Positions 40,246 to 55,522 of a DNA stretch of 64,000 nucleotides are shown here, in pieces. The notes under the pieces were generated by a model. It was not told the origin of the DNA, searched no databases, and saw only the letters and a program-made list of their open reading frames with translations. Position 1 is the stretch's first letter; each line of letters begins with the position of its first letter. The position numbers were made by a program, and so were the translations under genes. This DNA comes from Acetobacter sp. DsW_063. GTDB lineage: Bacteria; Pseudomonadota; Alphaproteobacteria; Acetobacterales; Acetobacteraceae. The stretch lies in assembly GCF_002153745.1 (NCBI RefSeq), contig NZ_JOPL01000014.1, positions 1 through 64,000 of the forward strand. Reading direction: 5' to 3'.

Positions 40246-42747
40246 ATGACTCGTCTCATCGGTTTAAAATCAGTCCTCCTTTGCGGTATCGCCCTCGTCA
40301 CCCCTACATTTACCTATGCTGCCTCAAGCGCCACGGCGACGAAGCATATCGCACACAAACACATCTCGCCCGTTCCGCCCGCATCGACCTCCATTCCTGC
40401 AGCTGGAGGTCGCCCGCACATCGTCGCCCGCTCGCAGCGAAGCGCCGTCCGCGCCAACGCGTCTCCTGAACAAATCGACGTCGCAGGGCGTACTATCGGC
40501 ACTTCGGTCCTGTCCCCGTCTACGCCAGTACACAGCACCACTCAGGTGACGGTGGTCTCTGGCGCGCAATTGCTCAGCACCGGTCAGACCAACGTGATGA
40601 GCGCTCTGGCGCAGGCCTCGGCTGCAATCACGGCTCCGCCACAACCGGGCGTCGGCAACAACGCCTTCGTACAGACCATGCAGCTTCGCGGTCAGTCCGC
40701 TGACGACACGTTGATTCTGGTCAACGGGCACCGTCGGCACCTCGGCGCCAACTTCAACGCGAACGCCGGCCCCAACTGGGGCACCGAACCCGCCGACATA
40801 TCGCTGATTCCCATTTCCGCGATCGATCATATCGAAGTCATAACCGAGGGCGCATCCGCCTTGTACGGCGCAGAGGCGATCGCTGGCGCAGTCAATATCG
40901 TCCTGAAGAACCGAGATCATGGTGGATCGGTCAACTTCCAGAATAGCGGCTTCTACGCTGGCGACGGGCAGGCCGTGAACGGATACGCCGACTACGGCAT
41001 GAAGCTGGGAAGACAGGGCGGGTATCTCGATCTTGCCGCCCAGGTGACGCATCAACAACCCAGCAACCGAAGCGGGGATTTCGTCGGGCAACTTTACCCC
41101 GCAGGCGATTCACGCAACGAGACGGCAAGTCGTGACGTCAATCGCATGCTCGGCGTTCCAAAGTCTACGATGGAAACGCTTAGCGAAAACATGGAAATCC
41201 CTCTCGCGCACAACGTGAATCTCTACAGTACCAGTACGTTCGGCCACCGTCGCGTCAATGTCGCAGAGACCTACCGCAGCGCCGCCAACAGCCTGACCAA
41301 CAGCACGCTCTGGCCAAATGGCGCCATCCCCTACATCGCGATGGACCAGTACGACTTTGAGACCGACAATGGAATCAAGGCTCATGCGCTGGGTTTTTCA
41401 TGGGACGCCTACGTCAATTATGGACGTGACGATCAGGCATATTCCACGATTCACAGCAATAACGTCTCCCTCGGCGACAGCAGCCCGCGAAATTTTTACG
41501 ACGGAAAGGCCATTACGTCCGAATTATCAGCCGGTGTACGCGGCTCCCGCGAATTCCGGACGTCATGGTTGCCGAAGCCGATCGGTTTGCGGTTCGGCGG
41601 CGAATACCGTCGCGATACATTCCAGATGACCGAGGGCGAGCGGGACTCCTGGTACGGCCTTGGCGCGACCGATCATGGCGGAAACATACCCGCAGCGGCG
41701 ACAAACCGCAGTCGTGACATTTACGAAGGCAACGTCAATCTCGATTTTTTTGTCACGAAGAACTGGGAATGGACAATTGGCGGTCGAGCCACCAGCTACT
41801 CCCATCTGGCGACAGTCGAAACCGGCAGTATCGGCACACGCTATAATTTCAATCGCAACTGGGCGATCCGCGCCAGCGTCAACACTGGATATCGTCCGCC
41901 AACTCTCGGCCAGACCTATTATTTCTACAACGCGCCCTTCGCCACCTACTCCGTAGATCAGTTACCGAACAGCAGCGCAGCAGCGCAAGCTCTTGGCGCT
42001 GGCAAGATCAAAGGCGAGTACTCCCGCAGCTACAGCGTTGGCCTGGATGCAACGCCGTTGGAGAACTGGCATTTCACGGGGAACCTTTACTACATCGCGA
42101 TCAATGATCGCCTCGCCAGCACGACCACGCTCGGCGGAACTGAAGTTGCGGATATCCTCGCATCTTCCGGACTGCAGAACGTCACATACGCCTCATACTA
42201 CACAAACCCGCTAAACACGCAGACTTACGGTGGGGACATCAGCACCGATTATACCTTGCACACGCAGCGGGCGGGCACGTTCAAATTCGCCTTCACTTTC
42301 AATTATTCTGACAACGAGGTTAGAAGCTACAACAAGACCCCGGCGGTGCTCGCGCAGTACGGTCTCAGCAGCTACAATAAATACGCCGAACAAATGCTGT
42401 TGCATTCGGCCCCGAAAAACCGGGAAAGCCTGTCGCTGAACTGGAATCGCGGGCGATGGGGCGTCTTCGTGCAGGAGCAGCGTTATGGTTCGACGCTGTT
42501 TTTGGCGAGCCCGACAGCAGCCGGCGTCACGCAACGCCCGGCTTTCCTGACCAACCTTGAGGTGTCCTACAAGATTCTACCGCAGTGGAGCCTGGCGATC
42601 GGCGCCAACAATCTTGGGAACAAATATCCGACCCGCATCCCGAAATCCATCTCGGGACCGTTGTTCGGCGCTTACAAGTACTCTTATTACTCGCCTTATG
42701 GTTTCAATGGCGGCATGTATTACGTCAGGACGAATTTCTCGTTCTGA
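40246..42747 (+). CDS. TonB-dependent outer-membrane receptor (second)
   Basis: An 833-residue receptor: signal peptide (to about TYAASS), a long hydrophilic linker, a plug with VMSALAQASAAI, QLRGQSADDTLILVNGHRRH and YGAEAIAGAVNIVL, and a barrel ending in Phe. The NGxRRH and ADISLIPISAID blocks are typical of the large peptide/oligomer-type TonB receptors often seen in Sphingomonads and Acetobacteraceae. It begins the run TonB receptor-MFS-pxp-acc, with only 29 bases to the MFS gene. I infer it imports the substrate of that pathway. Confidence 0.93.
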   Translation: MTRLIGLKSVLLCGIALVTPTFTYAASSATATKHIAHKHISPVPPASTSIPAAGGRPHIVARSQRSAVRANASPEQIDVAGRTIGTSVLSPSTPVHSTTQVTVVSGAQLLSTGQTNVMSALAQASAAITAPPQPGVGNNAFVQTMQLRGQSADDTLILVNGHRRHLGANFNANAGPNWGTEPADISLIPISAIDHIEVITEGASALYGAEAIAGAVNIVLKNRDHGGSVNFQNSGFYAGDGQAVNGYADYGMKLGRQGGYLDLAAQVTHQQPSNRSGDFVGQLYPAGDSRNETASRDVNRMLGVPKSTMETLSENMEIPLAHNVNLYSTSTFGHRRVNVAETYRSAANSLTNSTLWPNGAIPYIAMDQYDFETDNGIKAHALGFSWDAYVNYGRDDQAYSTIHSNNVSLGDSSPRNFYDGKAITSELSAGVRGSREFRTSWLPKPIGLRFGGEYRRDTFQMTEGERDSWYGLGATDHGGNIPAAATNRSRDIYEGNVNLDFFVTKNWEWTIGGRATSYSHLATVETGSIGTRYNFNRNWAIRASVNTGYRPPTLGQTYYFYNAPFATYSVDQLPNSSAAAQALGAGKIKGEYSRSYSVGLDATPLENWHFTGNLYYIAINDRLASTTTLGGTEVADILASSGLQNVTYASYYTNPLNTQTYGGDISTDYTLHTQRAGTFKFAFTFNYSDNEVRSYNKTPAVLAQYGLSSYNKYAEQMLLHSAPKNRESLSLNWNRGRWGVFVQEQRYGSTLFLASPTAAGVTQRPAFLTNLEVSYKILPQWSLAIGANNLGNKYPTRIPKSISGPLFGAYKYSYYSPYGFNGGMYYVRTNFSF

Positions 42748-42776
42748 CCGTCCTCACATATCGCGAGGTGCCTGCA

Positions 42777-44033
42777 TTGCCGTCTTCATTCACGTCCGGA
42801 GCGGACGCATCACGTCGGCTCCGTTTCACGATCTACGCATTGACGATCATCATGTGCGTCATATGCTATGGGGATCGCGCGGCCCTTTCGGTCGCCATGC
42901 CTCGCGTCGCGAAGGAATTCGGCCTTTCCCCCAGCGAAACTGGCTGGGTGCTATCGAGTTTTTTATGGTCGTATTTCTTTCTGAACTTACCCAGCGCCAT
43001 AACGCTTGATCGGATCGGCACGCGTCTTGTAGGCGCCGCCGCCGTGACATTGTGGTCTCTCGCCATGATTTTCGGCAGCGTGGCGACAACGGTTCCCGCC
43101 TTTATCGCGACACGCATTTTGCTTGGGGTCGGGGAATCTCCGACTTTCGCCCTTGGCAATAAGGTCATGCGGTATTGGGCGCGTCCCGGCGAACGGGGGC
43201 TGATGATGACGGCCTTCATCTGCGGCATTCCTATTGGCCTCGCGACCGGAGCAATCGCCAGCGCGTGGTTGGTGGAAACATTCGGTTGGCGGTCAACATT
43301 TTCAATCCTTGGCGCACTCGGCCTTATGTGGTCATTGGCATGGCTCTGGATATATCCCTCCAAATCCGCATTGCAGATGAGTGATGCGCGAGATGCGTTC
43401 GCGTTAATTTCAATTCCTACCCTGTTTCGATCTCGCGATTTCTGGGGCATAGTAATTCCGCAATGTTGCGGAAATTACGCCAATTTTCTTCTAATGTCAT
43501 GGCTACCGACAATTCTGCGCGACACGTTCCATCTGTCTCTCATGCAGTCGGGATTATACACGGCCTACAGTTACCTCGGCGCCACCATGCTGTCTCTGGC
43601 GCTTGGCAAGCTCGGCGAACGTTCGGTCCGGAATGCCGAAACGACAGCCGGAACTCGGCGCCATGCCGTAAGTTTTTTTCTGGCCATGGCCTCCATGCTG
43701 GGTGCATTCCCGCTCTGTCACTCTCCTTTTGCGGCCATCGCTTTGCTGATTGTCGCCATCGCCTGTGTGACAGCGGGCACCGGGGCCAACATGGCGCTTT
43801 TGGCCGATCTCCTCGTGGAACGCGGCAGTCTTGGTTCGGTGACCGGTCTGACCTTGACATTCAGCAATGGACTTGGGATCGCAGCGCCAGTCCTCACGGG
43901 TTATCTTCTTCAGGCCACAGGTAACTTTCATGCCGTTTTCTATATTGCTGCTTTCATCATTCTTGTCGGTTCAGTTGCGGTGTTTCTGATGCCGCGTCGC
44001 CATATTCACGCGCACCGGACCATTACGTCATGA
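42777..44033 (+). CDS. MFS transporter (anion:cation symporter-like)
   Basis: A transporter of about 418 residues with 12 predicted helices, the ACS-type opening (FTIYALTIIMCVICYGDRAALS) and the GxLxDRxGTR-like loop. I choose the TTG at 42777, six bases after a GAGGTG ribosome site, rather than GTG 42768 or more distant starts; the frame is open far upstream inside the TonB gene. Relatives carry organic anions such as tartrate, hexuronates or phthalate. Its stop overlaps pxpB (ATGA), coupling it to the pathway below. Confidence 0.88.
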   Translation: MPSSFTSGADASRRLRFTIYALTIIMCVICYGDRAALSVAMPRVAKEFGLSPSETGWVLSSFLWSYFFLNLPSAITLDRIGTRLVGAAAVTLWSLAMIFGSVATTVPAFIATRILLGVGESPTFALGNKVMRYWARPGERGLMMTAFICGIPIGLATGAIASAWLVETFGWRSTFSILGALGLMWSLAWLWIYPSKSALQMSDARDAFALISIPTLFRSRDFWGIVIPQCCGNYANFLLMSWLPTILRDTFHLSLMQSGLYTAYSYLGATMLSLALGKLGERSVRNAETTAGTRRHAVSFFLAMASMLGAFPLCHSPFAAIALLIVAIACVTAGTGANMALLADLLVERGSLGSVTGLTLTFSNGLGIAAPVLTGYLLQATGNFHAVFYIAAFIILVGSVAVFLMPRRHIHAHRTITS

Positions 44034-44671
44034 TCCGCATCAGCTGTGCGGGAGCAGGCGCCCTGTTACTCGACGCCGCGCACGGCGCATTCAACGATAG
44101 CGTGCAGGAACGAATCTGGGCGGTCGCACGACGCATGGCCGCTCTGCCGGAAATTCTTCAGGCCGTGCCGGGCGTGAATAACCTCCTTATCGTCTTCGAC
44201 GCTGTTCAATATGATCCGGCTACACTCGAACATAGCCTGCGAGCGGTTTGGAAAGACACGTTGGTCGACGCCTCACCGGCTCGCGAAATCGTGCTGCCCG
44301 TGACCTACGGTGGAACGTTCGGAGAGGATATACCGGTCGTAGCGCGTTTTGCAGGCTTGACTGAGGAAGAAGTCATTGCGGCTCACGTCTCGGGCGAATA
44401 CCGCGTAGCCGCGATCGGAGCGATGCCGGGCTTTGCATACCTGACGGGTCTCGACCCACGCCTCGCAATACCCAGACGAGCGTCGCCGCGCGTCAGTGTC
44501 GAGCAAGGCGCGGTTTCCATCGGCGGCGGGCAGGCTGGCGTCATGCCATGCACGTCGCCGACAGGGTGGCATATTCTCGGCAAAACCGAGGAAATTCTCT
44601 TCGACGCGCATCGTCCCGAACCCTGCCTGTTTCGACTGGGTGATCGCGTAAAGTTCAGGAGAGTCGGATGA
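44030..44671 (+). CDS. pxpB: 5-oxoprolinase subunit B (KipI/AHS1 family)
   Basis: A 213-residue protein of the KipI/PxpB family, with the VPGVNNLLIVFD, VTYGGTFGEDI, AIGAMPGFAYLTGLD and SIGGGQAGVMPC blocks. With PxpA and PxpC it makes the ATP-dependent 5-oxoprolinase of many bacteria. The same fold (AHS1) is half of the carboxyltransferase domain of urea carboxylase. It overlaps the MFS gene by 4 bases and pxpC by 4 bases. The biotin proteins encoded downstream make the carboxyltransferase reading attractive (see findings). Confidence 0.93.
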   Translation: MIRISCAGAGALLLDAAHGAFNDSVQERIWAVARRMAALPEILQAVPGVNNLLIVFDAVQYDPATLEHSLRAVWKDTLVDASPAREIVLPVTYGGTFGEDIPVVARFAGLTEEEVIAAHVSGEYRVAAIGAMPGFAYLTGLDPRLAIPRRASPRVSVEQGAVSIGGGQAGVMPCTSPTGWHILGKTEEILFDAHRPEPCLFRLGDRVKFRRVG

Positions 44672-45639
44672 TCGAAGTCCTGACGGGCTCTCCGCTCAAC
44701 GCCATCCAGGATCTCGGCCGCCCCCGAACGATGACGCTCGGCGTGTCCCGGGGAGGCGCCATGGACTCCGCAGCCTTGAAGCTGGGCAATCTGCTGCTCG
44801 GCAACGATATCGATGCAGCAGGAATCGAAATCGTCTTCTTTCCGTTCAAAATTCGCTTTCATGCCGATCAGGCATTCGCGGTAACAGGCGCCCGCGGGGT
44901 CGCTCGTCTCGATGACGAGCCTTTGCCTCCCGATTGGGCTGCAAAGGCTCGGGCGGGGCAGATCCTGACTCTGCACGCTCCGGCCAACGGCGCGCGAAGT
45001 TATGTGACATTTGCCGGGGGGCTTGATGTTCCGGTTGTTCTGGGATCCCGATCGACGGACATGAAGGGGGGGTTTGGAGGATATCAGGGGCGAGCGTTGG
45101 AAGCCGGGACACGGCTGGCCGCGTTTCCCTCTGACGCAAAGGACATGCCATCCAGTGGGTATGGGCTGGCGCATCCGTGCGACCTCCCTGAGAACGTGGC
45201 TGAGGTTCGCTGCCTGCCTGCCGCCGAATTCGATGCGTTCACTGATGATTCACGGGCGCTGTTCTTTGAACAACTATGGACGGTCACACGGACAGCAAAC
45301 CGCCTTGGCTATCGGCTGGAGAGCGAGACGCCATTGAGCCTGCGCTCCCCGCTGGAGTTGTTGTCGCACGGAATCGTCCCCGGAACGGTTCAGGTCCCGT
45401 CCGCCGGAATGCCCATTGTCCAGATGGCTGACGCCAACACCTGCGGCGGTTACCCCAAGATCGCAAATGTGATCGAACCCGACCTGCGCCTTCTGGCCCA
45501 GACCCAGACTGGTCGGCAGATACGTTTTATCCGCGTCGAACTGGATGAAGCCGTTGCAGCCGTTCGGGCGGACGCCATCCGAATGCATGAACTTGGTCTC
45601 GCGTTGCAATCTGCACGCGCGACGCTCCTCGCCCGATAA
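44668..45639 (+). CDS. pxpC: 5-oxoprolinase subunit C (KipA/AHS2, biotin-dependent carboxyltransferase-like)
   Basis: A 323-residue KipA/PxpC protein, with IQDLGRPRTMTLGVSRGGAMD at the start and LLSHGIVPGTVQVPSAGMPIV later, both signature blocks. It is homologous to the second half (AHS2) of the urea-carboxylase carboxyltransferase domain, which is why the family is often labelled biotin-dependent carboxyltransferase. It overlaps pxpB by 4 bases and is followed closely by pxpA. Confidence 0.94.
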   Translation: MIEVLTGSPLNAIQDLGRPRTMTLGVSRGGAMDSAALKLGNLLLGNDIDAAGIEIVFFPFKIRFHADQAFAVTGARGVARLDDEPLPPDWAAKARAGQILTLHAPANGARSYVTFAGGLDVPVVLGSRSTDMKGGFGGYQGRALEAGTRLAAFPSDAKDMPSSGYGLAHPCDLPENVAEVRCLPAAEFDAFTDDSRALFFEQLWTVTRTANRLGYRLESETPLSLRSPLELLSHGIVPGTVQVPSAGMPIVQMADANTCGGYPKIANVIEPDLRLLAQTQTGRQIRFIRVELDEAVAAVRADAIRMHELGLALQSARATLLAR

Positions 45640-45664
45640 CGCGTTTCACGAAGGACTTTGCGGG

Positions 45665-46429
45665 ATGCCCGATCTGACTGTCGACCTGAACGCCGATCTT
45701 GGTGAAAGCTTCGGCCACTACACAATCGGAAGCGATTCCGACATGCTGGACATCGTAACGTCCGCCAACGTCGCCTGTGGGTTCCACGGCGGCGACCCCG
45801 AAGTGATGGCCGCCACGTTCGCCATGGCGCGCGAAAAGGGCGTCGCGGTCGGCGCCCACCCCGGTTTTCCAGATCTGTGGGGCTTCGGACGACGTGTCAT
45901 GCCGTTCAGCCCGAGCGAAATTGAACGCATCATCGCCTATCAACTTGGCGCCGCTCAGGCTCTGGCGACTTATGCCGGACACAAAATTACCTATCTGAAA
46001 ACGCATGGGGCCCTCGGTAATTTGACCGAACGGGACGAATCCGTCGCAACAGCAGTCGCCAACGCAGTTCGTAGCGTGGATCCGACGTTGCCGATCATGG
46101 CCATCGCGCTGAGCCATCTGGAGCGGATCGGGCGAGAACGCGGTATGACCGTATTCTCGGAAATTTTTGCGGACCGCGCGTACACGGAAGATGGCCATCT
46201 GGTTTCACGCAAGGAAGCTGACGCTGTTCTTCACGATGCTGATTTCGCTGCGGAGCGCGCGGTCCGCATGATTTCCAGCGGCGCCATCGAAACCCGCTCC
46301 GGCGCGATGCTGTCAGCGCAGATCGACACGATTTGCGTGCATGGCGATAACGCTCATTCTGTCGATGTGGCCCGAAAAGTGCGCGCCCACCTTGAAGAGG
46401 CGGGAATATCCGTAAAAGCAAGAACATAA
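45665..46429 (+). CDS. pxpA: 5-oxoprolinase subunit A (LamB/YcsF family)
   Basis: A 254-residue protein with the conserved opening VDLNADLGESFG, SANVACGFHGGDP, GAHPGFPDLWGFGRR and THGALGN blocks of the YcsF/PxpA family, thought to supply the hydrolase part of 5-oxoprolinase. The ATG at 45665 follows a GGACTTTGCGGG segment and matches the family's N-terminus; a start 120 bases earlier would overlap pxpC. The carrier protein gene follows almost directly. Confidence 0.94.
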   Translation: MPDLTVDLNADLGESFGHYTIGSDSDMLDIVTSANVACGFHGGDPEVMAATFAMAREKGVAVGAHPGFPDLWGFGRRVMPFSPSEIERIIAYQLGAAQALATYAGHKITYLKTHGALGNLTERDESVATAVANAVRSVDPTLPIMAIALSHLERIGRERGMTVFSEIFADRAYTEDGHLVSRKEADAVLHDADFAAERAVRMISSGAIETRSGAMLSAQIDTICVHGDNAHSVDVARKVRAHLEEAGISVKART

Positions 46430-46447
46430 GTGGAAGATACGACGTCG

Positions 46448-46894
46448 ATGACGATCGATTTAAATCGCGCCGAAGCCCTGATGGAGCGCATGCAAAAGCT
46501 TGGAGTGGCGGAACTGGAAGTCGGACACGCCGGAGAGCGTTACCGCATCGTTCGTCAGGCGGTCGCATCAGGCGTTGCTCCCGTCGCCTCCCAGACTGGA
46601 CACATGTCTTCGCCTGTTTCTACAAAAACGTCAGCGGGCGGACCCTCGACCCATATCGTGTCATCGTCCATGCATGGCGTCTTCTACCGGGCCGCAGGAC
46701 CAGGGCAGCCCCCTTTCGTTGACGTTGGCGCAGCAGTGCAAGAAGGGCAGACGCTCTACATTCTCGAAGTCATGAAAACTCTTTCTCGGGTCGGGGCCGA
46801 GTTCCCGTGCAAGATCGTCGAAATTATAGCCGAAGACGGACAGGCCGTAGAACCCGGCGCCCCACTGTTTGCAGTGGAGACCGTTGATGCCTGA
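46448..46894 (+). CDS. accB: Biotin carboxyl carrier protein (AccB-like) in the pxp operon
   Basis: A carrier protein of about 148 residues. Residues 1-40 match the AccB N-terminal region (AEALMERMQKLGVAELEVG), followed by a Ser/Thr-rich linker and the biotinyl domain with Lys110 in EVMKT as the biotin attachment site. I prefer the ATG at 46448 (GGAAGA ten bases upstream) over the GTG at 46430, which abuts the pxpA stop. No carboxyltransferase accA/accD genes are adjacent, so it is unlikely to be the housekeeping acetyl-CoA carboxylase subunit. It overlaps the biotin carboxylase gene. Confidence 0.9.
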   Translation: MTIDLNRAEALMERMQKLGVAELEVGHAGERYRIVRQAVASGVAPVASQTGHMSSPVSTKTSAGGPSTHIVSSSMHGVFYRAAGPGQPPFVDVGAAVQEGQTLYILEVMKTLSRVGAEFPCKIVEIIAEDGQAVEPGAPLFAVETVDA

Positions 46895-48242
46895 TATCAG
46901 GACGGTCCTCATCGCCAACCGGGGCGAGATCGCGTTGCGTATCGTGCGCGCATGCAAGCTTCTTGGACTGCGCACAGTGGGCGTCTATTCCGAGGCCGAC
47001 GCCGGATTGGCGCATTTGAGACTGGTTGATCACGCCATCTGCATCGGCCCGGCGGCAGCTACGCATAGTTATCTCGACGGCGAGCGCATACTTCGCGCAG
47101 CGACCTTGACGGGAGCGGACGCCATTCATCCTGGTTATGGCTTCCTTTCGGAAAATCCGGATTTTGCCGAAGCCGTCGAACGGGCAGGACTGATCCTGAT
47201 TGGTCCGGCCTCATCCGTCATGCGCCTTATGGGCGACAAGATCAGCGCCCGGCGCGCCATGAAGGCCAACGGCGTGCCTTGTCTGCCCGGCTCGGATGCA
47301 GCGCTACCCCTCGATCCCGACGAGATCCGAACCATATGCGATACGATCGGATATCCGCTCATCGTGAAGGCGGCTGGCGGCGGTGGCGGAAGGGGCATGC
47401 GCGTCGTCATGAAAGCTGATGAATTACTCGACGCCGTTGAGAGCGCTCGCAAAGAAGCCGGCTTCGCATTTGGAAATGCTGACGTTTATGTAGAGCGGTT
47501 TTTGCGCGAACCGCGTCATGTGGAAATCCAGATTCTCGCGGACGCTCACGGAAATGCTGTATGGCTGGGCGCCCGTGACTGCTCGGTGCAGAGGCGTCAT
47601 CAGAAGTTGATTGAAGAAGCGCCTCCGCCCGGCATTCCTGAGTATCGGATTTCAGATCTTGGCTTGGCGTGCGCGGACGCTGCCGCCCGCATCGGATACA
47701 CGGGCGCGGGCACGTTCGAATTTCTTTATGAAGATGGGAATTTCAACTTTATCGAAATGAATACGCGTCTACAGGTCGAACATCCTGTGACGGAGATGAC
47801 GTCCGGCGTAGACATCGTGCGTGAGCAAATCATGATCGCGACCGGCGCGCCCCTGTCGTTCACACAGGCCGTCGTCAGAACAAACGGCCACGCGCTAGAG
47901 TGTCGTATCAACGCGGAAGATCCGGAAAGTTTCGCGCCTGCGCCGGGGACCATAAAAAAATGGCGTGCACCAGGCGGCCCCGGCGTCCGGGTGGATACCC
48001 ACATTTACGACGGATACGCCATCCCGCCGCATTATGATTCTCTTATCGCGAAGCTCATAGTCCATGGTTCCGACCGGAACGATGCGATCCGCCGAATGTC
48101 GACGGCGCTTGAAGAGTTGCAAATCGACGGCGTCCCGACGACTGCATCGCGGCAGGTGCGTCTTCTGGATGATCCGGATTTTCGGGCTGGCATTTTCACC
48201 GTTCACACCCTCGACCGACGTCGCACGGGGAAGCTGTCATGA
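46887..48242 (+). CDS. accC: Biotin carboxylase (AccC-like) in the pxp operon
   Basis: A 452-residue ATP-grasp biotin carboxylase: it carboxylates the biotin on a carrier using ATP and bicarbonate. The ATG at 46887 overlaps the end of the carrier gene. Lys161 in VKAAGGGGGRGM (ATP), HPGYGFLSEN, RDCSVQRRHQK, and Glu290-Met-Asn-Thr-Arg in EMNTRLQVEHPVTE are all intact, matching E. coli AccC positions closely. It looks catalytically complete. Its stop overlaps the next gene (ATGA). Confidence 0.95.
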   Translation: MPDIRTVLIANRGEIALRIVRACKLLGLRTVGVYSEADAGLAHLRLVDHAICIGPAAATHSYLDGERILRAATLTGADAIHPGYGFLSENPDFAEAVERAGLILIGPASSVMRLMGDKISARRAMKANGVPCLPGSDAALPLDPDEIRTICDTIGYPLIVKAAGGGGGRGMRVVMKADELLDAVESARKEAGFAFGNADVYVERFLREPRHVEIQILADAHGNAVWLGARDCSVQRRHQKLIEEAPPPGIPEYRISDLGLACADAAARIGYTGAGTFEFLYEDGNFNFIEMNTRLQVEHPVTEMTSGVDIVREQIMIATGAPLSFTQAVVRTNGHALECRINAEDPESFAPAPGTIKKWRAPGGPGVRVDTHIYDGYAIPPHYDSLIAKLIVHGSDRNDAIRRMSTALEELQIDGVPTTASRQVRLLDDPDFRAGIFTVHTLDRRRTGKLS

Positions 48243-48673
48243 GGCAACAGGAAGACAAGACCGGGGATCCGATCGCAGGTGATTTTCTTGAAAACCTCGT
48301 CGCAGCCATGCGCCGTCATGGCGCAGGCGTGTTCGAATTTGAAAACGAAGACACGTTCCTGTCTGTCGTGCTGGAGGCCAAAAGCCCTGATATTTCGTTG
48401 AATACGTCGCCTGACACGGACGATGCTCGTTCAGAGGCCGAATCCGATATTTTTGTAAAAAGTCCGGAGCTTGGACTCTTCGCAAGCGCAGGAAAGAGTA
48501 TCGGGGATTCCGTCATTCGAAACGATGTGATCGGCTTCGTGTGTGTCGGACCATTGCGGCTTGCGATCCGGGCGCCGACGGATGGACTCATCACCGAGGA
48601 GCTTGCGCGCGACAGTACGCCAATAGGGTATCAGGAAGCAGTTTTCCGCATCCGACCTGTGATCACATCATGA
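48239..48673 (+). CDS. Biotinyl/lipoyl-domain-like protein without the biotin lysine
   Basis: A 144-residue protein. Residues 70-140 follow the biotinyl-domain pattern (FVKSPELGLF, then SIGDSVIRNDVIGFV and APTDGLITEEL). However, where a carrier has E-x-M-K the sequence reads VGPLR, so no lysine is available for biotin. The N-terminal 60 residues are acidic and unlike AccB. It is translationally coupled to accC (ATGA) and ends the pxp-acc operon. It could be an assembly or regulatory subunit of the enzyme, or a decayed carrier copy; an intact reading frame in a tight operon favours a function. Confidence 0.72.
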   Translation: MRQQEDKTGDPIAGDFLENLVAAMRRHGAGVFEFENEDTFLSVVLEAKSPDISLNTSPDTDDARSEAESDIFVKSPELGLFASAGKSIGDSVIRNDVIGFVCVGPLRLAIRAPTDGLITEELARDSTPIGYQEAVFRIRPVITS

Positions 48674-48690: not shown

Positions 48691-49269
48691 TTAGAGAGAC
48701 GACACGGATCTCGACGCCTGTTCATAAAACCCATTGAGAATACGCAACGCTTTCGCCACTTCTGCGATGACCGTACCGCCGACCCGACGATCATCCGGGA
48801 TCAGTTCCAGCAGGCAAACGTTTCTAAGACGGGCGTACTCTGCACAGTACCCGGCGCCCGCAGCCGACGTCCGAACAAAAACCTCCTTGCCCTGCTTACG
48901 TCGTTCGATCAGCCCGCGCGCGTCGAGCTTTTTCATGGCGTAATTCAGATAATGTCGTTCGGAAATATTCAGCGCGAACATCAGGTCTGGAATACTCTTC
49001 TCCTTCGCACGATGGTTGACGTGATGCAGGATCAGCGTCTCGATCGCCGACAGTTCCGGCAAACCCGCCGCCGCCATGCAGCGGACGATCCAATGCTGAA
49101 AAGCATTATTGGCGACCGTCAGAGAAAATTCGAATTCGCTCAGGTCCTCGCTCCCAGGCGTCGCAAGATGCGAGGACGAGACAATGAACGGCCGCCTCTC
49201 CGGCTCTCGGGCGTCCGCGCCTCCGTCCATTTCGGCAGGCTCCCTTTTTCCTCGCCCCCGTAAAGCCAT
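48691..49269 (-). CDS. MarR-like winged-helix regulator (HTH_27 type)
   Basis: A 192-residue regulator. The central block (LSEFEFSLTVANNAFQHWIVRCMAAAGLPELS, here only cited in part) and the helix-wing region (LNISERHYLNYAMKKLDARGLI, then GKEVFV) match predicted MarR-family regulators with an HTH_27 domain. It lies between the convergent pxp-acc operon and the divergent hyuA gene; 82 bases separate it from the hyuA start. It is likely to control hyuAB and perhaps itself. Met14 is an alternative start. Confidence 0.82.
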   Translation of the reverse strand: MALRGRGKREPAEMDGGADAREPERRPFIVSSSHLATPGSEDLSEFEFSLTVANNAFQHWIVRCMAAAGLPELSAIETLILHHVNHRAKEKSIPDLMFALNISERHYLNYAMKKLDARGLIERRKQGKEVFVRTSAAGAGYCAEYARLRNVCLLELIPDDRRVGGTVIAEVAKALRILNGFYEQASRSVSSL

Positions 49270-49351
49270 CGCTTACCCCCCTCCAGCTTCCTGTGCGCCG
49301 TAGCACGTGCCCCGAGCGAGCTTAACATCTTTCAGGACATCGACGAACATC

Positions 49352-51445
49352 ATGACCGACAGGACCGCCATTCGCCTCGCCGTCGATATCGGCGGCACAT
49401 TCACTGACGTAGTGCTCGACACTCCAGAAGGGCGCTATACGCGCAAGGTGCTGACGACGCCGTCCGCTCCGGAGGAAGGCGTGATGAACGGCGCCGCGTT
49501 GGCGTTGCAAGACGCCCGAACCAATCTGTCGGACGTCGACGAATTCGTTCACGGCACAACCCTTGCGACAAACGCGATCATCGAAAGACGTGGCGCCAAA
49601 ACAGCTCTCATCGGCACGGAGGGATTTCGTGACGTAATCGAAATCGGCACGGAGAGTCGCTTTAACCAATATGATCTGATGCTTCGAAAGCCTGCGCCGC
49701 TCGTACCCCGCGCCCTGCGCTTCACCGCGCCGGAGCGCATGGACGCCCGCGGACAGATCAGAAAACCTCTTGATGAGAGGGAATTGCTAAAAATCGCTGA
49801 CGAGCTTCGAAAGGTCGGGATCGAAAGCGTGGCCGTCGCTTTTCTCCACTCTTACGCCAACCACTCGCACGAAACACGTGCACGCGATATCCTCTCGACA
49901 GCTCTTCCTCATGTCACCATATCGATTTCCAGCGAAGTTTGCCCGGAAGTTCGTGAGTACGAGCGCACCTCCACCACGGTCGCCAATGCTTATGTGCAAC
50001 CTTTGATGGCGGGCTATCTGGGCCGTCTGCGCAACGGCTTGTCCCGCGACGGTTTTAAAGGCGCGCTCTATCTCGTCACGTCGAGCGGGGCGCTGACCTC
50101 CCTTGAGACCGCCAGCCAGTTTCCCGTGCGTCTGGTCGAGTCCGGCCCGGCAGGCGGCGCGATCTTTGCCGCGCAATGCGCGCAGAAGATGAACGACACT
50201 CACGTGCTGTCCTTCGATATGGGCGGCACGACGGCCAAGGTCTGCCTTGTCGAACATTTTCGCCCCACCTCGTCGCGCACCTTTGAGGTTGATCGCACGA
50301 CGCGCTTTATGAAGGGGTCTGGCCTGCCGTTGCGTATTCCCGTCATTGAAATGGTTGAAATCGGGGCGGGCGGCGGCTCCATCGCGCATCTCGACGCGAT
50401 GAAGCGGGTGACGGTCGGACCGGAAAGCGCATCTTCAGTTCCCGGACCCGCCTGCTATGGCCTCGGCGGCACGCGGCCCGCCGTCACAGACGCCGATATC
50501 GCGCTTGGCCTGCTGCGCCCGGAAGGCTTCGCGGGAGGCAGCATGACGTTGCGCCCCGAACTCGCGAAGCAGGCGCTGCTCTCGGATATTGGCGAGCCGC
50601 TTGGCCTGACGGCGGAAATGGCGGCCCACGCGGTTTACGAGATGGTGTGCGAAAACATGGCCAGCGCCGCGCGCGTTCACGCCGTGGAGCGAGGCGTCGC
50701 CATCGCGGAACACACGATGATCGCCTTCGGCGGCGCAGCCCCCCTCCACGCCGCTCGGGTGGCGGAGAAGCTGGGCGTGCGTCGCCTCGTGATCCCGTCC
50801 AACGCAGGCGTTGGTTCAGCTGTCGGCTTTCTCGCCGCGCCTCTGGCCTTTGAGATCGTCCGCTCGTACCCGATGCGCATTGACGATAACTTCGATGTTG
50901 CGGCCATTTCCGCATTGCTTGGCGACATGGCGAACTCCATCATGGCTGTGTTGGCGCAGGACTCTCGCCGGGACGTCCTTCGCGTCGAACGTAACGCCTT
51001 CATGCGCTACGTCGGACAGGGTCATGAGATCACTGTGCGCCTGCCGGACGGTGACGATGGATTGTCCGATGTCGCAGCCCTCCGCGCAGCCTTCGAACAG
51101 GATTATGCGCGCCAGTTCTCTCGCGCCATTCCGGGGGCCGCAGTCGAAGTTATGAACTGGTCCGTCACGATTTCCGCGCCTGTGGCGACGCCGGAGCCTT
51201 ACGCGTCCACACCGCCACTTCGACAGACGCAACCCGACGAACGCCGCGACTTCTTCTCCGGCGACATCGACGCGGTCGTCGATCTGCCGGTCCATTATCG
51301 CAAGACCATGCGCCCCGGCGACGCCCTGAGCGGCCCTGCATTGATCCGCGAGGACGAAACAACAACCTACGTGTCCGCCCGATATGACGCGCATATCGAC
51401 GGCAGCGGCAACATTGTCCTGACCATGAAAGAATCTGCGGCATGA
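49352..51445 (+). CDS. hyuA: Hydantoinase/oxoprolinase subunit A (ATP-dependent)
   Basis: A 697-residue HyuA-family subunit with ASKHA-type phosphate-binding blocks DIGGTFTD near the start and SFDMGGTTAKV in the middle, plus EIGAGGGSIA. With HyuB it hydrolyses a cyclic amide (5-oxoproline, N-methylhydantoin, caprolactam, or acetone-like carboxylation in relatives) at the cost of ATP. The ATG at 49352 matches the family start; in-frame ATG 49307 lies further upstream. Its stop overlaps hyuB. Whether it handles the same compound as PxpABC is unknown. Confidence 0.94.
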   Translation: MTDRTAIRLAVDIGGTFTDVVLDTPEGRYTRKVLTTPSAPEEGVMNGAALALQDARTNLSDVDEFVHGTTLATNAIIERRGAKTALIGTEGFRDVIEIGTESRFNQYDLMLRKPAPLVPRALRFTAPERMDARGQIRKPLDERELLKIADELRKVGIESVAVAFLHSYANHSHETRARDILSTALPHVTISISSEVCPEVREYERTSTTVANAYVQPLMAGYLGRLRNGLSRDGFKGALYLVTSSGALTSLETASQFPVRLVESGPAGGAIFAAQCAQKMNDTHVLSFDMGGTTAKVCLVEHFRPTSSRTFEVDRTTRFMKGSGLPLRIPVIEMVEIGAGGGSIAHLDAMKRVTVGPESASSVPGPACYGLGGTRPAVTDADIALGLLRPEGFAGGSMTLRPELAKQALLSDIGEPLGLTAEMAAHAVYEMVCENMASAARVHAVERGVAIAEHTMIAFGGAAPLHAARVAEKLGVRRLVIPSNAGVGSAVGFLAAPLAFEIVRSYPMRIDDNFDVAAISALLGDMANSIMAVLAQDSRRDVLRVERNAFMRYVGQGHEITVRLPDGDDGLSDVAALRAAFEQDYARQFSRAIPGAAVEVMNWSVTISAPVATPEPYASTPPLRQTQPDERRDFFSGDIDAVVDLPVHYRKTMRPGDALSGPALIREDETTTYVSARYDAHIDGSGNIVLTMKESAA

Positions 51446-53037
51446 CGACGAACGCCTCCCACACCGGCGCGCCGGCAGATGCGCAACAGGAGATCCGGTT
51501 CCAGATCATGTGGAATCGCCTGATTTCCGTCGTAGGGGAACAGGCGCGCATCCTGATCCGCACCGCCTTCAGCCCGATCGTGCGCGAGTGCGAGGACATT
51601 TCCGCCGGTGTCTTCGATACGCAGGGCCGCATGGTGGCGCAGGCCGTCACCGGCACGCCGGGCCATGTGAATTCCATGGCGGAATCAGTCAGCCATTTTC
51701 TGCGTCACTTTCCTGTTGAGACGATGAAGGAAGGCGACGCGTACATCACCAACGATCCGTGGATGGGCACCGGGCATCTGAACGACTTCGTCATCACCAC
51801 GCCCACCTTTTATCGCGGAAAGTTGGTGGCGCTGTTTTCCTGCACTGGTCATTTGATGGACATTGGCGGTCTGGGCAATGGCCCCGACGCCACCGACGTG
51901 TTCATGGAAGGTCTGTCGATCCCCATGCTCAAGCTGGTCGATCAGGGCACGGTGAACGAGACGTTGATGGCCATGATCCGCGCCAACACACGCCTGCCAG
52001 TGGACACGGAAGGCGACACCTATTCTCTGGTCGCCTGCAACGAAGCTGGCTCCGTCGCCCTGCGCGACATGATGGATGAGTTCGGCATCGACACGATTGA
52101 ACCTCTGGCGAACTACATCATCGATCGGTCCCGTCAGGCCGTCCTCGAAAAAATCGCCTCGCTTCCGAAAGGGTGCTGGTCATACGCCATGACGGTGGAT
52201 GGGTACGACGCCCCGCTCGAACTGAAGGCGACACTGACCGTCGCCAACGACGGAGTAACTGTCTCCTACGACGGTTCTCCCCCGGCCGTCACACGCGGGA
52301 TCAACGTGCCGCTGGCCTACACGAAGGCGTACACGGTGTTTGGCCTCGCCTGCGCCATCTCGCCGGACGTACCGAACAACGCCGGTTCGCTCGCGCCCTA
52401 TCACGTGGACGCGCCTTCGGGGTCAGTTCTGAACGCGCTCCGTCCCGCCCCGGTCTCATCCCGGCACATCATCGGGCAGATGCTGCCCGACATGGTGTTT
52501 GGCTGCCTGCGCACGCCCTTGCCGGATCGCGTCCCCGCCGAAGGCACCTCCTGTCTGTGGAACATCGCCGTGCGAGGCGTCTGGTCTCCTGATGGCTATG
52601 CGAAACCCAGAGCCTTCGCTCTGGCGATCACCACCAATGGCGGCACCGGCGCGCGGCCCGGTCTGGACGGCTTATCAGCTACGGCGTTTCCGTCCGGCGT
52701 CCACGGCACTCCGGTGGAGATCGCCGAAAACCAGTGCCCTCTCATTTTCTGGAAGAAGGAGCTGCGTGAAGGGAGCGGCGGCGCGGGCCAAACCCGTGGA
52801 GGTGACGGGCAGATTATGGAGATCGGCACGACGAATGACGCATCGTTCGAACTGCTGGCGGCGTTTGATCGCGTAAAGCACCCGCCGCGCGGCGCGCTGG
52901 GCGGAAGCGACGGCGCCGCCGGTATCGTACAAACATCAAAGGGGCGATCACTGGCGTCGAAGGGGCTACATGTCATCGCATCGGATGAGCGGCTGCATTT
53001 GCTGACGCCCGGCGGCGGCGGCCTCGGCGCGCCCTGA
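51442..53037 (+). CDS. hyuB: Hydantoinase/oxoprolinase subunit B
   Basis: A 531-residue HyuB-family subunit, partner of HyuA. Typical blocks are FSPIVRECEDISAGVFD, GTPGHVNSM, DAYITNDPWMGTGHLND and RGGDGQIMEIG with the C-terminal TPGGGGLGAP. The ATGA overlap with hyuA indicates coupled translation. A D-2-hydroxyacid dehydrogenase gene follows 42 bases later. Confidence 0.95.
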   Translation: MTTNASHTGAPADAQQEIRFQIMWNRLISVVGEQARILIRTAFSPIVRECEDISAGVFDTQGRMVAQAVTGTPGHVNSMAESVSHFLRHFPVETMKEGDAYITNDPWMGTGHLNDFVITTPTFYRGKLVALFSCTGHLMDIGGLGNGPDATDVFMEGLSIPMLKLVDQGTVNETLMAMIRANTRLPVDTEGDTYSLVACNEAGSVALRDMMDEFGIDTIEPLANYIIDRSRQAVLEKIASLPKGCWSYAMTVDGYDAPLELKATLTVANDGVTVSYDGSPPAVTRGINVPLAYTKAYTVFGLACAISPDVPNNAGSLAPYHVDAPSGSVLNALRPAPVSSRHIIGQMLPDMVFGCLRTPLPDRVPAEGTSCLWNIAVRGVWSPDGYAKPRAFALAITTNGGTGARPGLDGLSATAFPSGVHGTPVEIAENQCPLIFWKKELREGSGGAGQTRGGDGQIMEIGTTNDASFELLAAFDRVKHPPRGALGGSDGAAGIVQTSKGRSLASKGLHVIASDERLHLLTPGGGGLGAP

Positions 53038-53079: not shown

Positions 53080-54030
53080 ATGCCGACGTGTTTCATCACC
53101 CAGCCCATCGCTGAAAAGGCGGTAGATTTTCTGCGCAATCAGGGAGTCGAGATTCGCTTCGCCTCCAGCATGACGATGGACGCCGTCATAGCGGAAGTCG
53201 GCTCGTCCGAAGCCGTCATCACGCGCGATCTGGGATTCAGCGCGGAAGCTCTGTCCGCAGCTCCGGCGTTACGCGTCGTCGCCTGTCATGGCTCCGGCAC
53301 CAACCGGATCGCCGTAGACGCCGCCAAGGCCCGCAACGTAACGGTCACGCGCGCGCCCGGCACCAACAGCCGGTCAGTCGCGGAACTGACAATCGGGCTC
53401 ATGCTCGCCGTGGCCCGCCGTGTCGGCGAGGCTGACCGAGCCGTACGCGCAAACGACTGGGCGTTTCGCTACCGCGCTGGCGGCATAGAGCTGTATGGGA
53501 AGACTCTGGGTCTGGTCGGGTTCGGCGCCATCGCCCGTGAAGTCGCACGGATCGCCGCCAACGGCTTCGGCATGAAAGTGCTGGCATGGTCGCCGAGTGT
53601 GCCTGCGGGGGTCTTCGCGGAGCATGTCGTGACGCCCGTGTCGGACATTCCCACCCTGCTGGGCGCGTCAGACGTCATCTCCCTGCATCGTCCCGCCGAA
53701 CGGCCGGGCGATGCCTCCCCGGTCATCACGGAAGAGACGATCGGCTCCCTGCGTCCCGGATCGATCCTGCTGAACAGCAGCCGTGGCGCAGCGGTGGACC
53801 ATCAGGCTTTGCTGTCAGCGATCACATCGGGGCGGTTGGCCGGAGCCGGGCTTGACGTCTTGCAGCAGGAGCCGCCAAGGTCTGACGACCCTCTTCTTCA
53901 GTGCGAGCGGATCGTGTTCTCCCCGCATATCGGCGCGGCGACGGAGGAAGCCCTTCTGCGGACCGCCATGATGTGCGCCCATCAGGTTATCGACGTGTTC
54001 TCCGGGCGCATCCCGCCGCACGCGTTGTGA
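53080..54030 (+). CDS. NAD(P)-dependent D-2-hydroxyacid dehydrogenase
   Basis: A 316-residue dehydrogenase of the phosphoglycerate/hydroxypyruvate type. The Rossmann motif is GLVGFGAIA (144-152). The catalytic set is Arg235 (SSRGA), Glu264 (QQEPP) and His283 (SPHIGAAT). It has no ACT or regulatory extension, so it is a short form. Its place in the hyuAB unit suggests it reduces or oxidises a 2-oxo/2-hydroxy acid arising from the opened ring, but this is inference. Confidence 0.92.
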   Translation: MPTCFITQPIAEKAVDFLRNQGVEIRFASSMTMDAVIAEVGSSEAVITRDLGFSAEALSAAPALRVVACHGSGTNRIAVDAAKARNVTVTRAPGTNSRSVAELTIGLMLAVARRVGEADRAVRANDWAFRYRAGGIELYGKTLGLVGFGAIAREVARIAANGFGMKVLAWSPSVPAGVFAEHVVTPVSDIPTLLGASDVISLHRPAERPGDASPVITEETIGSLRPGSILLNSSRGAAVDHQALLSAITSGRLAGAGLDVLQQEPPRSDDPLLQCERIVFSPHIGAATEEALLRTAMMCAHQVIDVFSGRIPPHAL

Positions 54031-54139: not shown

Positions 54140-55522
54140 ATGACGAGCCCCACTGTTCCCGGGCCGGGCCTTTACGGTCTCGCTCGGGTCTCGGCCATGA
54201 CAGCCGTCGCGCTCGGCCTGCTTCTCGCAGTTCTCGATTACTCGGTGGCGAACGTGGCGTTGCCCACGATCGGTCACGATCTGCATGTCGCGCCATCCGA
54301 CTCAATCTGGGTGGTCAATGCTTACCAGTTCGCATCCCTCGTCGCGCTGCTGCCATTCGCCGCCCTCGGGTCACGTGTGGGATTCGCACGCATGTGTCGC
54401 ATCGGCACCGCCATCTTTATTGTCGCGTCGGTTCTGTGCGCGCTGTCGCACACTCTCGTTGAAATTTCCCTAGCGCGCGTTCTGCAGGGACTGGGCAGCG
54501 CCTGCATTCTAAGCGTCAATCTGGCGCTTGTCCGGTTCATTTACCCACCGGCGGAGTTGGGCAAGGGCATCGGCCTCAACGGTCTGGTGATCGGAGTGGG
54601 CGTGGCGCTCGGTCCAAGCATCGGCGCCGCAGTTTTGAGCGTAACGAGCTGGCCCTGGATATTCTGGTTGAACGTGCCCCTTGGAGGCGCGGCATTGGCT
54701 CTGGCGTCCTTCACTCTTCCCCAAACCCCGCGTTCCTCTGCACCCTATGATGCGCCGCACGCTCTGCTGTCTGTTCTCGCCCTTGGGGGCATCGCGTTGG
54801 GGCTGGACGAATTCGCCCATGGCCATCTGGGCCTTACGGGATTCGGACCGCTCCTGCTCGGGGCGCTTGCGATCGGCGTATTGTGGAGCAGACAGCATGA
54901 CCGCCCGGACCCAATCTTTCCGGCTGATCTCCTAAAGCATGGCCCATTTCGCACGGCCTTTCTGGTCGGCGTGATGGGGTTTCTGACCTCCAACCTGTTC
55001 ATGATTTCGATCCCGTTCACTCTGGAGGCCGTTTTTGCAAAGAGTGCGTCTCTGACAGGCCTGCTGATCACCGCATGGCCGATCGGCGTCACGATCGCTT
55101 CGCCCGTCTCGGGCAGGTTGGCGGACAGACTGCCCGTGGGACTTGTCTCCTCTCTCGGCCTATTGCTGACGGGCGTCGGATTCTTTGCTCTGTGCTGCCT
55201 GCCGCCGACGGCTCCGAATCTGGTGATCGCCGCCGCGATTCTGATCGCAGGAATAGGCTTCGGGGTATTCCAGCCGCCCAACAATCGCGCGATGATGGCC
55301 TCCGCAAGGGCGGGCCGCGAAGGCGGGGCCAGCGGGATGGTCTCTCTTTCACGTCTGAGCGGGCAAACACTGGGAGCTACATCCGTCGCCTGCCTGTTCA
55401 TGTATCTACCGTCACGGGCGTCGATGCTCTGCCTGGCGTTGGCTTCATCGTGCGCCCTGATCACAGCGACGGTCAGTGGCAGCCGCCTGCTGAAGCGTGA
55501 CCCGAAGAGGTCGCTTCCCTGA
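54140..55522 (+). CDS. DHA2-type MFS exporter
   Basis: A 460-residue transporter with the DHA2 opening (LLLAVLDYSVANVALPTIGHDL), motif LGSRVGFARM and about 14 predicted helices. The family exports drugs or metabolites by proton exchange. It lies 109 bases after the dehydrogenase in the same direction and may close the hyu unit. No adaptor or channel gene is adjacent. Confidence 0.92.
   Translation: MTSPTVPGPGLYGLARVSAMTAVALGLLLAVLDYSVANVALPTIGHDLHVAPSDSIWVVNAYQFASLVALLPFAALGSRVGFARMCRIGTAIFIVASVLCALSHTLVEISLARVLQGLGSACILSVNLALVRFIYPPAELGKGIGLNGLVIGVGVALGPSIGAAVLSVTSWPWIFWLNVPLGGAALALASFTLPQTPRSSAPYDAPHALLSVLALGGIALGLDEFAHGHLGLTGFGPLLLGALAIGVLWSRQHDRPDPIFPADLLKHGPFRTAFLVGVMGFLTSNLFMISIPFTLEAVFAKSASLTGLLITAWPIGVTIASPVSGRLADRLPVGLVSSLGLLLTGVGFFALCCLPPTAPNLVIAAAILIAGIGFGVFQPPNNRAMMASARAGREGGASGMVSLSRLSGQTLGATSVACLFMYLPSRASMLCLALASSCALITATVSGSRLLKRDPKRSLP

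Follow-up and report, generated by a model that had tools for sequence, protein, structure and literature searches.

A pxpBCA operon of Acetobacter sp. DsW_063 with its own biotin carboxylase, biotin carrier and a lysine-less carrier paralogue: a candidate biotin-dependent variant of PxpABC

The operon and its host genome

The stretch of Acetobacter sp. DsW_063 DNA analysed here (64,000 nucleotides, positions 1 to 64,000 of contig NZ_JOPL01000014.1, assembly GCF_002153745.1; hereafter the window) corresponds to contig C101 of a 3.03 Mb genome that is 69% complete, and carries six closely packed + strand genes within positions 44030..48673: pxpB, pxpC, pxpA, the genes of a biotin carboxyl carrier protein (BCCP) and of a biotin carboxylase (BC), and orf7 (Table 1). 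Adjacent genes abut or overlap by 4-8 nt, the sole exception being a gap of 25 nt between pxpC and pxpA. An earlier reading of the same DNA, made from the sequence only, had placed the first five genes in one tightly overlapping operon, with which gene calls and Pfam agree, but had left undescribed both orf7, although it lies inside the interval, and the hyuA and hyuB genes immediately downstream. The operon set very probably constitutes one functional unit, and we lean towards the reading that it encodes a biotin-dependent, lactam-activating variant of PxpABC provided with a subunit similar to the plant BADC proteins.

The family assignments of the three Pxp proteins are uneven. PxpB scored above the equivalog cut-off of TIGR00370 (175.8 bits vs 145.55) and PxpC above the cut-off of the broader model TIGR00724 (281.8 bits vs 230.2), but PxpC remained below the NCBIfam equivalog model PxpC_5OPro (NF045499, 283.3 bits vs 500). 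PxpA passed two NCBIfam subfamily models (NF003814, 358.5 vs 226; NF003816, 254.7 vs 213), and was under the cut-offs of the three equivalog models NF003812, NF003813 and NF003815.

The biotinyl lysine of the carrier lies in an EVMKT motif and is K116 if translation starts at the GTG at 46430. With the ATG at 46448 as start codon it becomes K110, in agreement with the Lys110 proposed previously. The carboxylase, for which an intact enzyme had been claimed, does show three Pfam domains, and the expected letter is found at 15 of 16 catalytic-site positions, the remaining one being R for K, under an assumed ungapped shift of two. The positions are those taken to form the active site of the E. coli enzyme, with some doubt about the expected letter at three of them. 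Elsewhere the incomplete genome shows a single further BC and a single further BCCP of AccB type, both on contig C161, and therefore the BC and BCCP of the operon represent an extra set; the C161 pair would be the housekeeping one. The extra pair might be a spare half of acetyl-CoA carboxylase that shares the main AccA and AccD, its proximity to pxpABC being incidental or a matter of co-regulation only. NCBIfam indeed calls the BC AccC (TIGR00514, 628.9 bits vs 626.5), and, in agreement with the lack of accA and accD pointed out in the sequence-only reading, no acyl-CoA carboxyltransferase family was present among the 20 window proteins, part of the window open reading frames (ORFs), that were scanned with Pfam. 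On the other hand, the BCCP is below the cut-off of TIGR00531 (93.8 vs 115.2 bits), and the distribution described in the next section speaks against a spare half as well.

Table 1. Features of the operon and its surroundings in the window (T2, PxpBC clade described in the text)
Feature	Position	Strand	Basis
TonB-dependent receptor	40246-42747		
MFS transporter	42585..44033	+	Pfam MFS_1 2.2e-52; 4-nt overlap with pxpB
pxpB (AHS1, CT_C_D)	44030..44671	+	Pfam CT_C_D 2.4e-65
pxpC (AHS2, CT_A_B), T2 type, QMADAN motif	44668..45639	+	Pfam CT_A_B 3.9e-84
pxpA (LamB/YcsF)	45665..46429	+	Pfam LamB_YcsF 1e-93
BCCP	46430..46894	+	Pfam Biotin_lipoyl 6.2e-12; EVMKT motif
Biotin carboxylase (BC)	46887..48242	+	Three Pfam biotin carboxylase domains; PRK08591 660.9 bits vs cut-off 597
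orf7, AccB paralogue without biotinyl Lys (pseudo-BCCP)	48239..48673	+	Profile and structure model
MarR-type regulator, divergent from hyuA	48691..49269	-	Pfam HTH_27 5.9e-15
hyuA, CapA-like hydantoinase/oxoprolinase-family subunit	49307..51445	+	Pfam Hydantoinase_A 2.5e-77
hyuB, CapB-like subunit	51442..53037	+	Pfam Hydantoinase_B 5.8e-146
2-Hydroxyacid dehydrogenase	53080-54030		
Second MFS transporter	54140-55522		
LysR regulator	57961-58875		
M20 peptidase	59079-60335		
TonB-dependent receptor	61315-63633		

Linkage of biotin carboxylase to pxpBC and the lysine-less carrier

A search for the PxpB family over 299 genomes of the phylum of the window (Pseudomonadota) rendered 103 matching genomes, from which 99 loci were fetched (93 as stretches of 16-16.5 kb and six of 9-12.5 kb), fused urea carboxylases being excluded by their open frame, one sub-threshold match being omitted and one urea carboxylase being added as a control. 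The loci were annotated with profiles grown from the proteins of the window itself, the PxpB profile being built from unfused ORFs. The concatenated PxpB and PxpC sequences were used for a tree, computed by a quick method on 123 rows (125 with two reference pairs added); several of its branches are long, so that single placements are unsure, and one locus whose PxpC is cut by the end of the stretch (L134) was left out. Besides E. coli-type PxpBC (T0), it contains three clades, T1, T2 and T3, each separated from all other rows by a single branch with support of 99-100. The window belongs to T2, whose 26 rows comprise five loci of the phylum sample, 20 loci from the genus and the window.

The comparison across genomes of how often BC lies near pxpBC, which the sequence-only reading had proposed, gave 23 of the 99 phylum loci, with a strong dependence on clade: BC was present in the fetched stretch in 12/12 T1, 4/5 T2 and 6/7 T3 loci vs 1/74 in T0, and it was absent from L134 (0/1). 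When all the rows of the tree are considered, BC accompanies 24 of 26 T2 loci (all but L048 and L141) and 7 of 8 T3 loci, including L053. Linkage requires seven changes on the tree vs 36.2 in shuffles, a comparison in which near-copies lower the observed number. In T1 the arrangement is more compact, since PxpB and PxpC are fused as one ORF in 11 of 12 loci by domain search (L146 has two ORFs), these being the only 11 PxpB-PxpC fusions found by that search, and the T1 BC ORF additionally matches the carrier profile in 12/12 loci. A T0 locus, L095, has BC, BCCP and a carrier-like ORF without the lysine about 4 kb from BC, and appears to be a separate case.

A further set of 80 named loci, kept off the tree, consisted of the best 80 of 216 from a scan that started from aligned T2 PxpC sequences; among these best 80, the nearest PxpC matches to that of the window are from Acetobacter sacchari and A. 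nitrogenifigens (98% over PxpC). The set spans Gluconobacter, Gluconacetobacter, Acetobacter, Komagataeibacter, Mesorhizobium, Agrobacterium, Rhizobium, Bradyrhizobium, Rhodobacter, Chelatococcus, Shinella, Pseudomonas, Bordetella, Paraburkholderia and Rahnella, together with some unnamed bacteria. BC was found within ca. 8 kb in 74 of the 80, which were located with T2 PxpC patterns. The QMADAN motif of PxpC was rejected as a proof of linkage, one of the search patterns for the named loci having contained it; their QMADAN letters are thus present by construction and only their BC linkage is informative, the 26 T2 rows being the fair count for the motif. Six BC-bearing loci are counted twice (L032/L186, L033/L262, L034/L246, L036/L219, L047/L207 and L050/L204), and L041/L245 and L048/L215 also look like duplicate pairs.

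The last gene of the operon, orf7, had no Pfam or NCBIfam match at E <= 0.001. Among its relatives, however, a Biotin_lipoyl match at E <= 1 was obtained for 40 of the 46 members examined, the best having 2.8e-9 and the window copy none, and a profile of the family (A2) matched the other AccB of the genome with 1.2e-17 over positions 5-136 of 138. The predicted structure begins with a helix-strand-strand unit and ends in a C-terminal barrel (pLDDT 95-98 over residues 71-130), for which the best PDB entry found by Foldseek was 1bdo, the biotinyl domain from E. coli (E 1.5e-5, TM 0.82 by target). The profile match, the modelled barrel and the lysine-less column indicate that orf7 is a paralogue of AccB over its full length that lacks the biotinyl lysine. 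Profile A2 is unfit for counting orf7, because at least 284 of 289 genomes match it with AccB-like proteins, but it is evidence of the homology.

Carriers were counted instead as separate carrier-like ORFs of up to 260 aa, on the strand of BC and within 5 kb of it. The count examined 204 loci, 117 of them having a BC ORF of less than 700 aa; L143, whose BC ORF exceeds that length, was omitted. All 99 carriers with the MK motif were located upstream of BC, and 90 of the 92 without it downstream; the two upstream cases (L045 and L046) measure 52 and 66 aa and match nothing but the BCCP profile. The 99 upstream and 90 downstream carriers correspond to 91 and 83 distinct sequences, respectively, and if one locus is taken per distinct BC (111 loci) the lysine carrier is upstream in 93 and the lysine-less one downstream in 84. 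At the biotinyl column, K is found in 99/99 of the upstream carriers and in 0/90 of the downstream set, although in 14 of these 90 a K lies no more than three columns away. By this test the lysine-less downstream carrier occurs in 23 of 26 T2 rows (not in L048, L133 or L141) and in none of the 18 T1 and T3 loci covered; orf7 is therefore a T2 trait in this sample, L095 (T0) having a similar ORF. The linkage of BC in three PxpBC clades vs 1/74 in T0, and the arrangement of the carriers with respect to BC next to pxpBC, which is constant across genera, are both against a spare acetyl-CoA carboxylase half, which we consider improbable.

The orf7-like gene can also stay where BC is absent or comes from elsewhere, as indicated by two Rahnella loci (L242 and L249) that have T2-type pxpBC and orf7 with no BC nearby, orf7 preceding pxpA directly in L242, and by L141, whose orf7-like ORF, labelled as BCCP by the first profiles, also has no BC nearby. 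Two kinds of apparent fusion with orf7 were discarded, namely PxpA ORFs with 300-390 aa (Mesorhizobium and others) and a PxpB ORF of 389 aa (L238): the domain search revealed no orf7 domain in them, and their additional N-terminal residues seem to be a translation of orf7 in a different frame.

Active-site residues, PxpA and neighbouring genes

The sequence-only reading had regarded the operon as the same machine as urea carboxylase in separate subunits. The part of this claim that concerns the modules stands: BC, AHS1/AHS2 and BCCP, joined in one chain (BC-CT-BCCP) in urea carboxylase, are all encoded in the window as separate genes, with PxpA added, and the PxpC fold resembles that of urea carboxylase (3va7, 5i8i). 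The part that concerns the active site does not. In the urea amidolyase of Kluyveromyces lactis, Lys1605 is described as the likely general base in passages of PMC5770610; its column was set by chain numbering (tKynp motif), at a place where the match line shows K and the chain letters are not visible. This column holds Lys in T3 (8/8) and in urea carboxylase (5/7, with two gaps), and Arg in T0 (76/76), T1 (12/12) and T2 (26/26). Two further columns part urea carboxylase from PxpBC in the same way, with Tyr (T3 8/8; urea carboxylase 5/7, two gaps) vs Trp throughout T0, T1 and T2 in PxpB, and Asp (T3 8/8, urea carboxylase 7/7) vs Ser throughout T0, T1 and T2 in PxpC. The letters of the window are Arg149, Trp180 and Ser233, that is, of the PxpBC type, and general-base Lys, Tyr and Asp are absent from its PxpB and PxpC. 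On the tree, T2 adjoins E. coli-type PxpBC, away from urea carboxylase, and the predicted structure of the window PxpC is closest to E. coli YbgK (5dud, TM 0.85). Judged by these residues, T1 and T2 appear to retain an oxoprolinase-type site.

The presence of every urea carboxylase domain would be accounted for if the operon encoded a split urea carboxylase producing allophanate or a similar ureide, with PxpA as a passenger. Such an enzyme would have to work with Arg for the base Lys and with Trp and Ser for Tyr and Asp, in a clade placed beside E. coli-type PxpBC, and no amidase family, to which allophanate hydrolase belongs, was detected among the 20 scanned window proteins; we hold it to be highly improbable for this operon. 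T3 fits such an enzyme better. Since Lys, Tyr and Asp are kept there, T3 looks like a split urea-type carboxylase, and by its sequences it would suit the role of a split carboxylase of urea or ureides better than the window operon does. Its loci (L053, L175, L177, L179, L180, L181, L182 and L183) have AHS1 and AHS2 as separate genes, with BC in 7/8 (L181 is cut by the contig end), PxpA in 7/8 and a short BCCP of 77-93 aa in six. Fused urea carboxylase, in an open frame of ca. 1185 aa, is present in several genomes of the genus (G002, G006, G007, G013, G033 and others), and G013 and G033 are among those that hold it together with a T2 locus.

Compared with PxpABC of E. coli (YbgJKL), the window has all three Pxp families and shares R149, W180 and S233 but differs in the BC, BCCP and pseudo-BCCP of its own in the operon and in some positions of PxpC and PxpA. 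PxpC has Q252 and N257 in 26/26 T2 rows, with N257 in 0/76 T0 rows; column 257 is Q in 65/76 T0 rows, N in 26/26 T2, P in 12/12 T1, and V in seven and P in one of the T3 rows. Each BC-linked clade thus differs from the usual T0 letter, but this column is not decisive, because these are three clades rather than 46 cases, and 11 of 76 T0 rows also depart from Q. R128 of PxpC was rejected as a mark of urea carboxylase, being present in T2 (26/26) and T3 (8/8) but only in 2/7 urea carboxylase rows, and no weight was given to G134 (urea carboxylase 7/7, T2 25/26, T3 7/8, not in T1).

The window PxpA keeps K112, H114, E166 and C224, and has KTHGALGN where the commonest motif is KPHGALYN, the form found in T1 (12/12). 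K112, E166 and C224 are invariant (66/66) in the T0 rows with PxpA in the stretch (66 of 76). They are also retained in the T2 subgroup of the window (10 rows), which has KTHGALGN or near forms, and are lost from a second T2 subgroup (16 rows), where K112 is replaced by S in 16, E166 by L in 16 and C224 by L in 15, with one gap. In this second subgroup (L033-L046 and relatives) pxpA stays beside pxpBC in spite of the loss. The change of these residues suggests that T2 has probably shifted to other substrates. Ten neighbour ORFs chosen around five T2 loci included class I/II aminotransferases, short-chain dehydrogenases, LysR and GntR regulators, an EamA transporter and a RraA-like protein, genes that would suit an amino-acid-like product.

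An MFS gene, as beside pxpB in the window, was found in the stretch of 17 of 20 T2 genus loci, and this transporter is likely to take up the substrate. Just upstream of it lies one of two TonB-dependent receptors of the window. Downstream of the operon, hyuA and hyuB scored under the cut-off of 1000 with the CapA and CapB models (482.4 and 172.1 bits, respectively), and both genes were found in the stretch of 19 of the 80 named loci, 18 of them from Acetobacteraceae and one from Paraburkholderia. They belong to the same hydantoinase/oxoprolinase family as caprolactamase CapAB, which, according to passages of PMC8453981, requires both ATP and bicarbonate for lactam opening and is unrelated in sequence to PxpABC. 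CapAB is not known to use biotin. The 2-hydroxyacid dehydrogenase, second MFS transporter, LysR regulator and M20 peptidase genes that follow hyuAB may be part of the same catabolic island.

The proposed carboxyl transfer and its alternatives

In the reaction that we propose, BC would carboxylate the biotin of BCCP using ATP and bicarbonate, and BCCP would deliver carboxybiotin to PxpB-PxpC, which has the fold of the urea carboxylase carboxyltransferase. PxpB-PxpC would then pass the carboxyl group to a cyclic amide, at N or O, and PxpA would hydrolyse the activated ring with release of CO2. The ATP cost would be paid by BC, since it is BC that charges biotin with ATP. The product of orf7 would be a pseudo-carrier. 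It probably caps or orders the BC-BCCP assembly, perhaps tethering PxpBC to it as well, in the way that plant BADC proteins serve heteromeric acetyl-CoA carboxylase, or else it might limit the enzyme by occupying the place of BCCP. According to an excerpt of PMC11926652, BADC subunits lack the biotinylation motif, are partners of BC and BCCP, are called unique to the plant enzyme and have a debated role, as an assembly factor or, for some authors, as an inhibitor. The likeness of orf7, BCCP-like over both domains and without the biotinylation lysine, is drawn from this description of BADC, and orf7 differs in being bacterial and encoded beside pxpBC.

A solved relative bears on the contact between both halves. 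PDB entry 9yx5, released on 2025-11-26, is entitled as a long chain acyl-CoA carboxylase complex of Mycobacterium smegmatis with MSMEG_0435-MSMEG_0436 bound; its chains W and V, named "Allophanate hydrolase subunit 1/2", match the window PxpB and PxpC, and it also holds the biotin-bearing AccA3. The MSMEG_0435-MSMEG_0436 pair joins T1 on the tree with support of 100. To judge from the title and chain names, others have thus determined a T1 relative bound to a biotin-dependent carboxylase complex, although the pair is of T1 and not T2 and the carboxylase is another one. The linkage of BC, the fixed order of the carriers, this entry, the extra BC/BCCP set and the kept BC residues all favour the proposed route. 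Physical contact of BC and BCCP with PxpBC seems likely to us, while for carboxybiotin chemistry on a lactam we see the chances as evenly balanced.

Several observations weigh against carboxyl transfer by the window enzyme. No tested residue proves it for T2, because T0, T1 and T2 all have Arg in place of the base Lys, and T2 adjoins the ordinary PxpABC group with site letters common to both. Ordinary PxpABC is described with no biotin genes: in passages of two papers, PxpB and PxpC are assumed to phosphorylate 5-oxoproline (PMC13274462), and hydrolyse ATP when co-purified (PMC8453981). BC is not nearby in six of the 80 named loci (L212, L215, L242, L249, L261 and L264) nor in two of the 26 T2 rows (L048 and L141), and of the three BC found in the genome of L141 two are parts of urea carboxylase, which leaves one elsewhere, so that L141 lacks a dedicated BC. 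Finally, the contact in 9yx5 might regulate the carboxylase rather than feed PxpBC, the enzyme being a long-chain acyl-CoA carboxylase.

The assumed phosphorylation and the ATP hydrolysis would agree with a regulatory link, in which PxpBC binds the BC complex to sense the carboxylation or nitrogen state and ring opening stays driven by phosphorylation with ATP. R149, W180 and S233 are common to T0, T1 and T2, the title of 9yx5 says merely "bound", and orf7 resembles the BADC proteins regarded by some as inhibitors. It would be costly, however, to keep a second BC/BCCP set as a sensor; moreover, the catalytic letters of BC are retained, and T3 combines urea-carboxylase residues with a similar gene set. 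We regard this alternative as unlikely.

In the open-licence literature we found no paper in which BC/BCCP are connected with pxpBC. For L. pentosus, passages of PMC12427679 report pxpB/pxpC as well as an additional BC/BCCP pair but do not link the two, and two split transferase genes were noted as unstudied in 2011, in an excerpt of PMC3199775. If the proposed carboxyl transfer is correct, what is annotated as 5-oxoprolinase and as a surplus half of acetyl-CoA carboxylase would be one enzyme in a range of bacteria, and annotations would change for acetic-acid bacteria, rhizobia and pseudomonads. Tentatively, there may be a whole class of bacterial lactamases that use carboxybiotin instead of phosphate, given that a BC and BCCP set goes with three PxpBC clades; in T2 the added pseudo-BCCP, as a bacterial counterpart of plant BADC in the fixed order BCCP-BC-pseudo-BCCP, would be required for assembling or gating the complex. 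Biotin would then gain a role in lactam opening, the phosphorylation by PxpABC being one of two routes of activation, and a bacterial system would be at hand for asking what a biotin-less carrier does, a question debated in plant fatty-acid synthesis.

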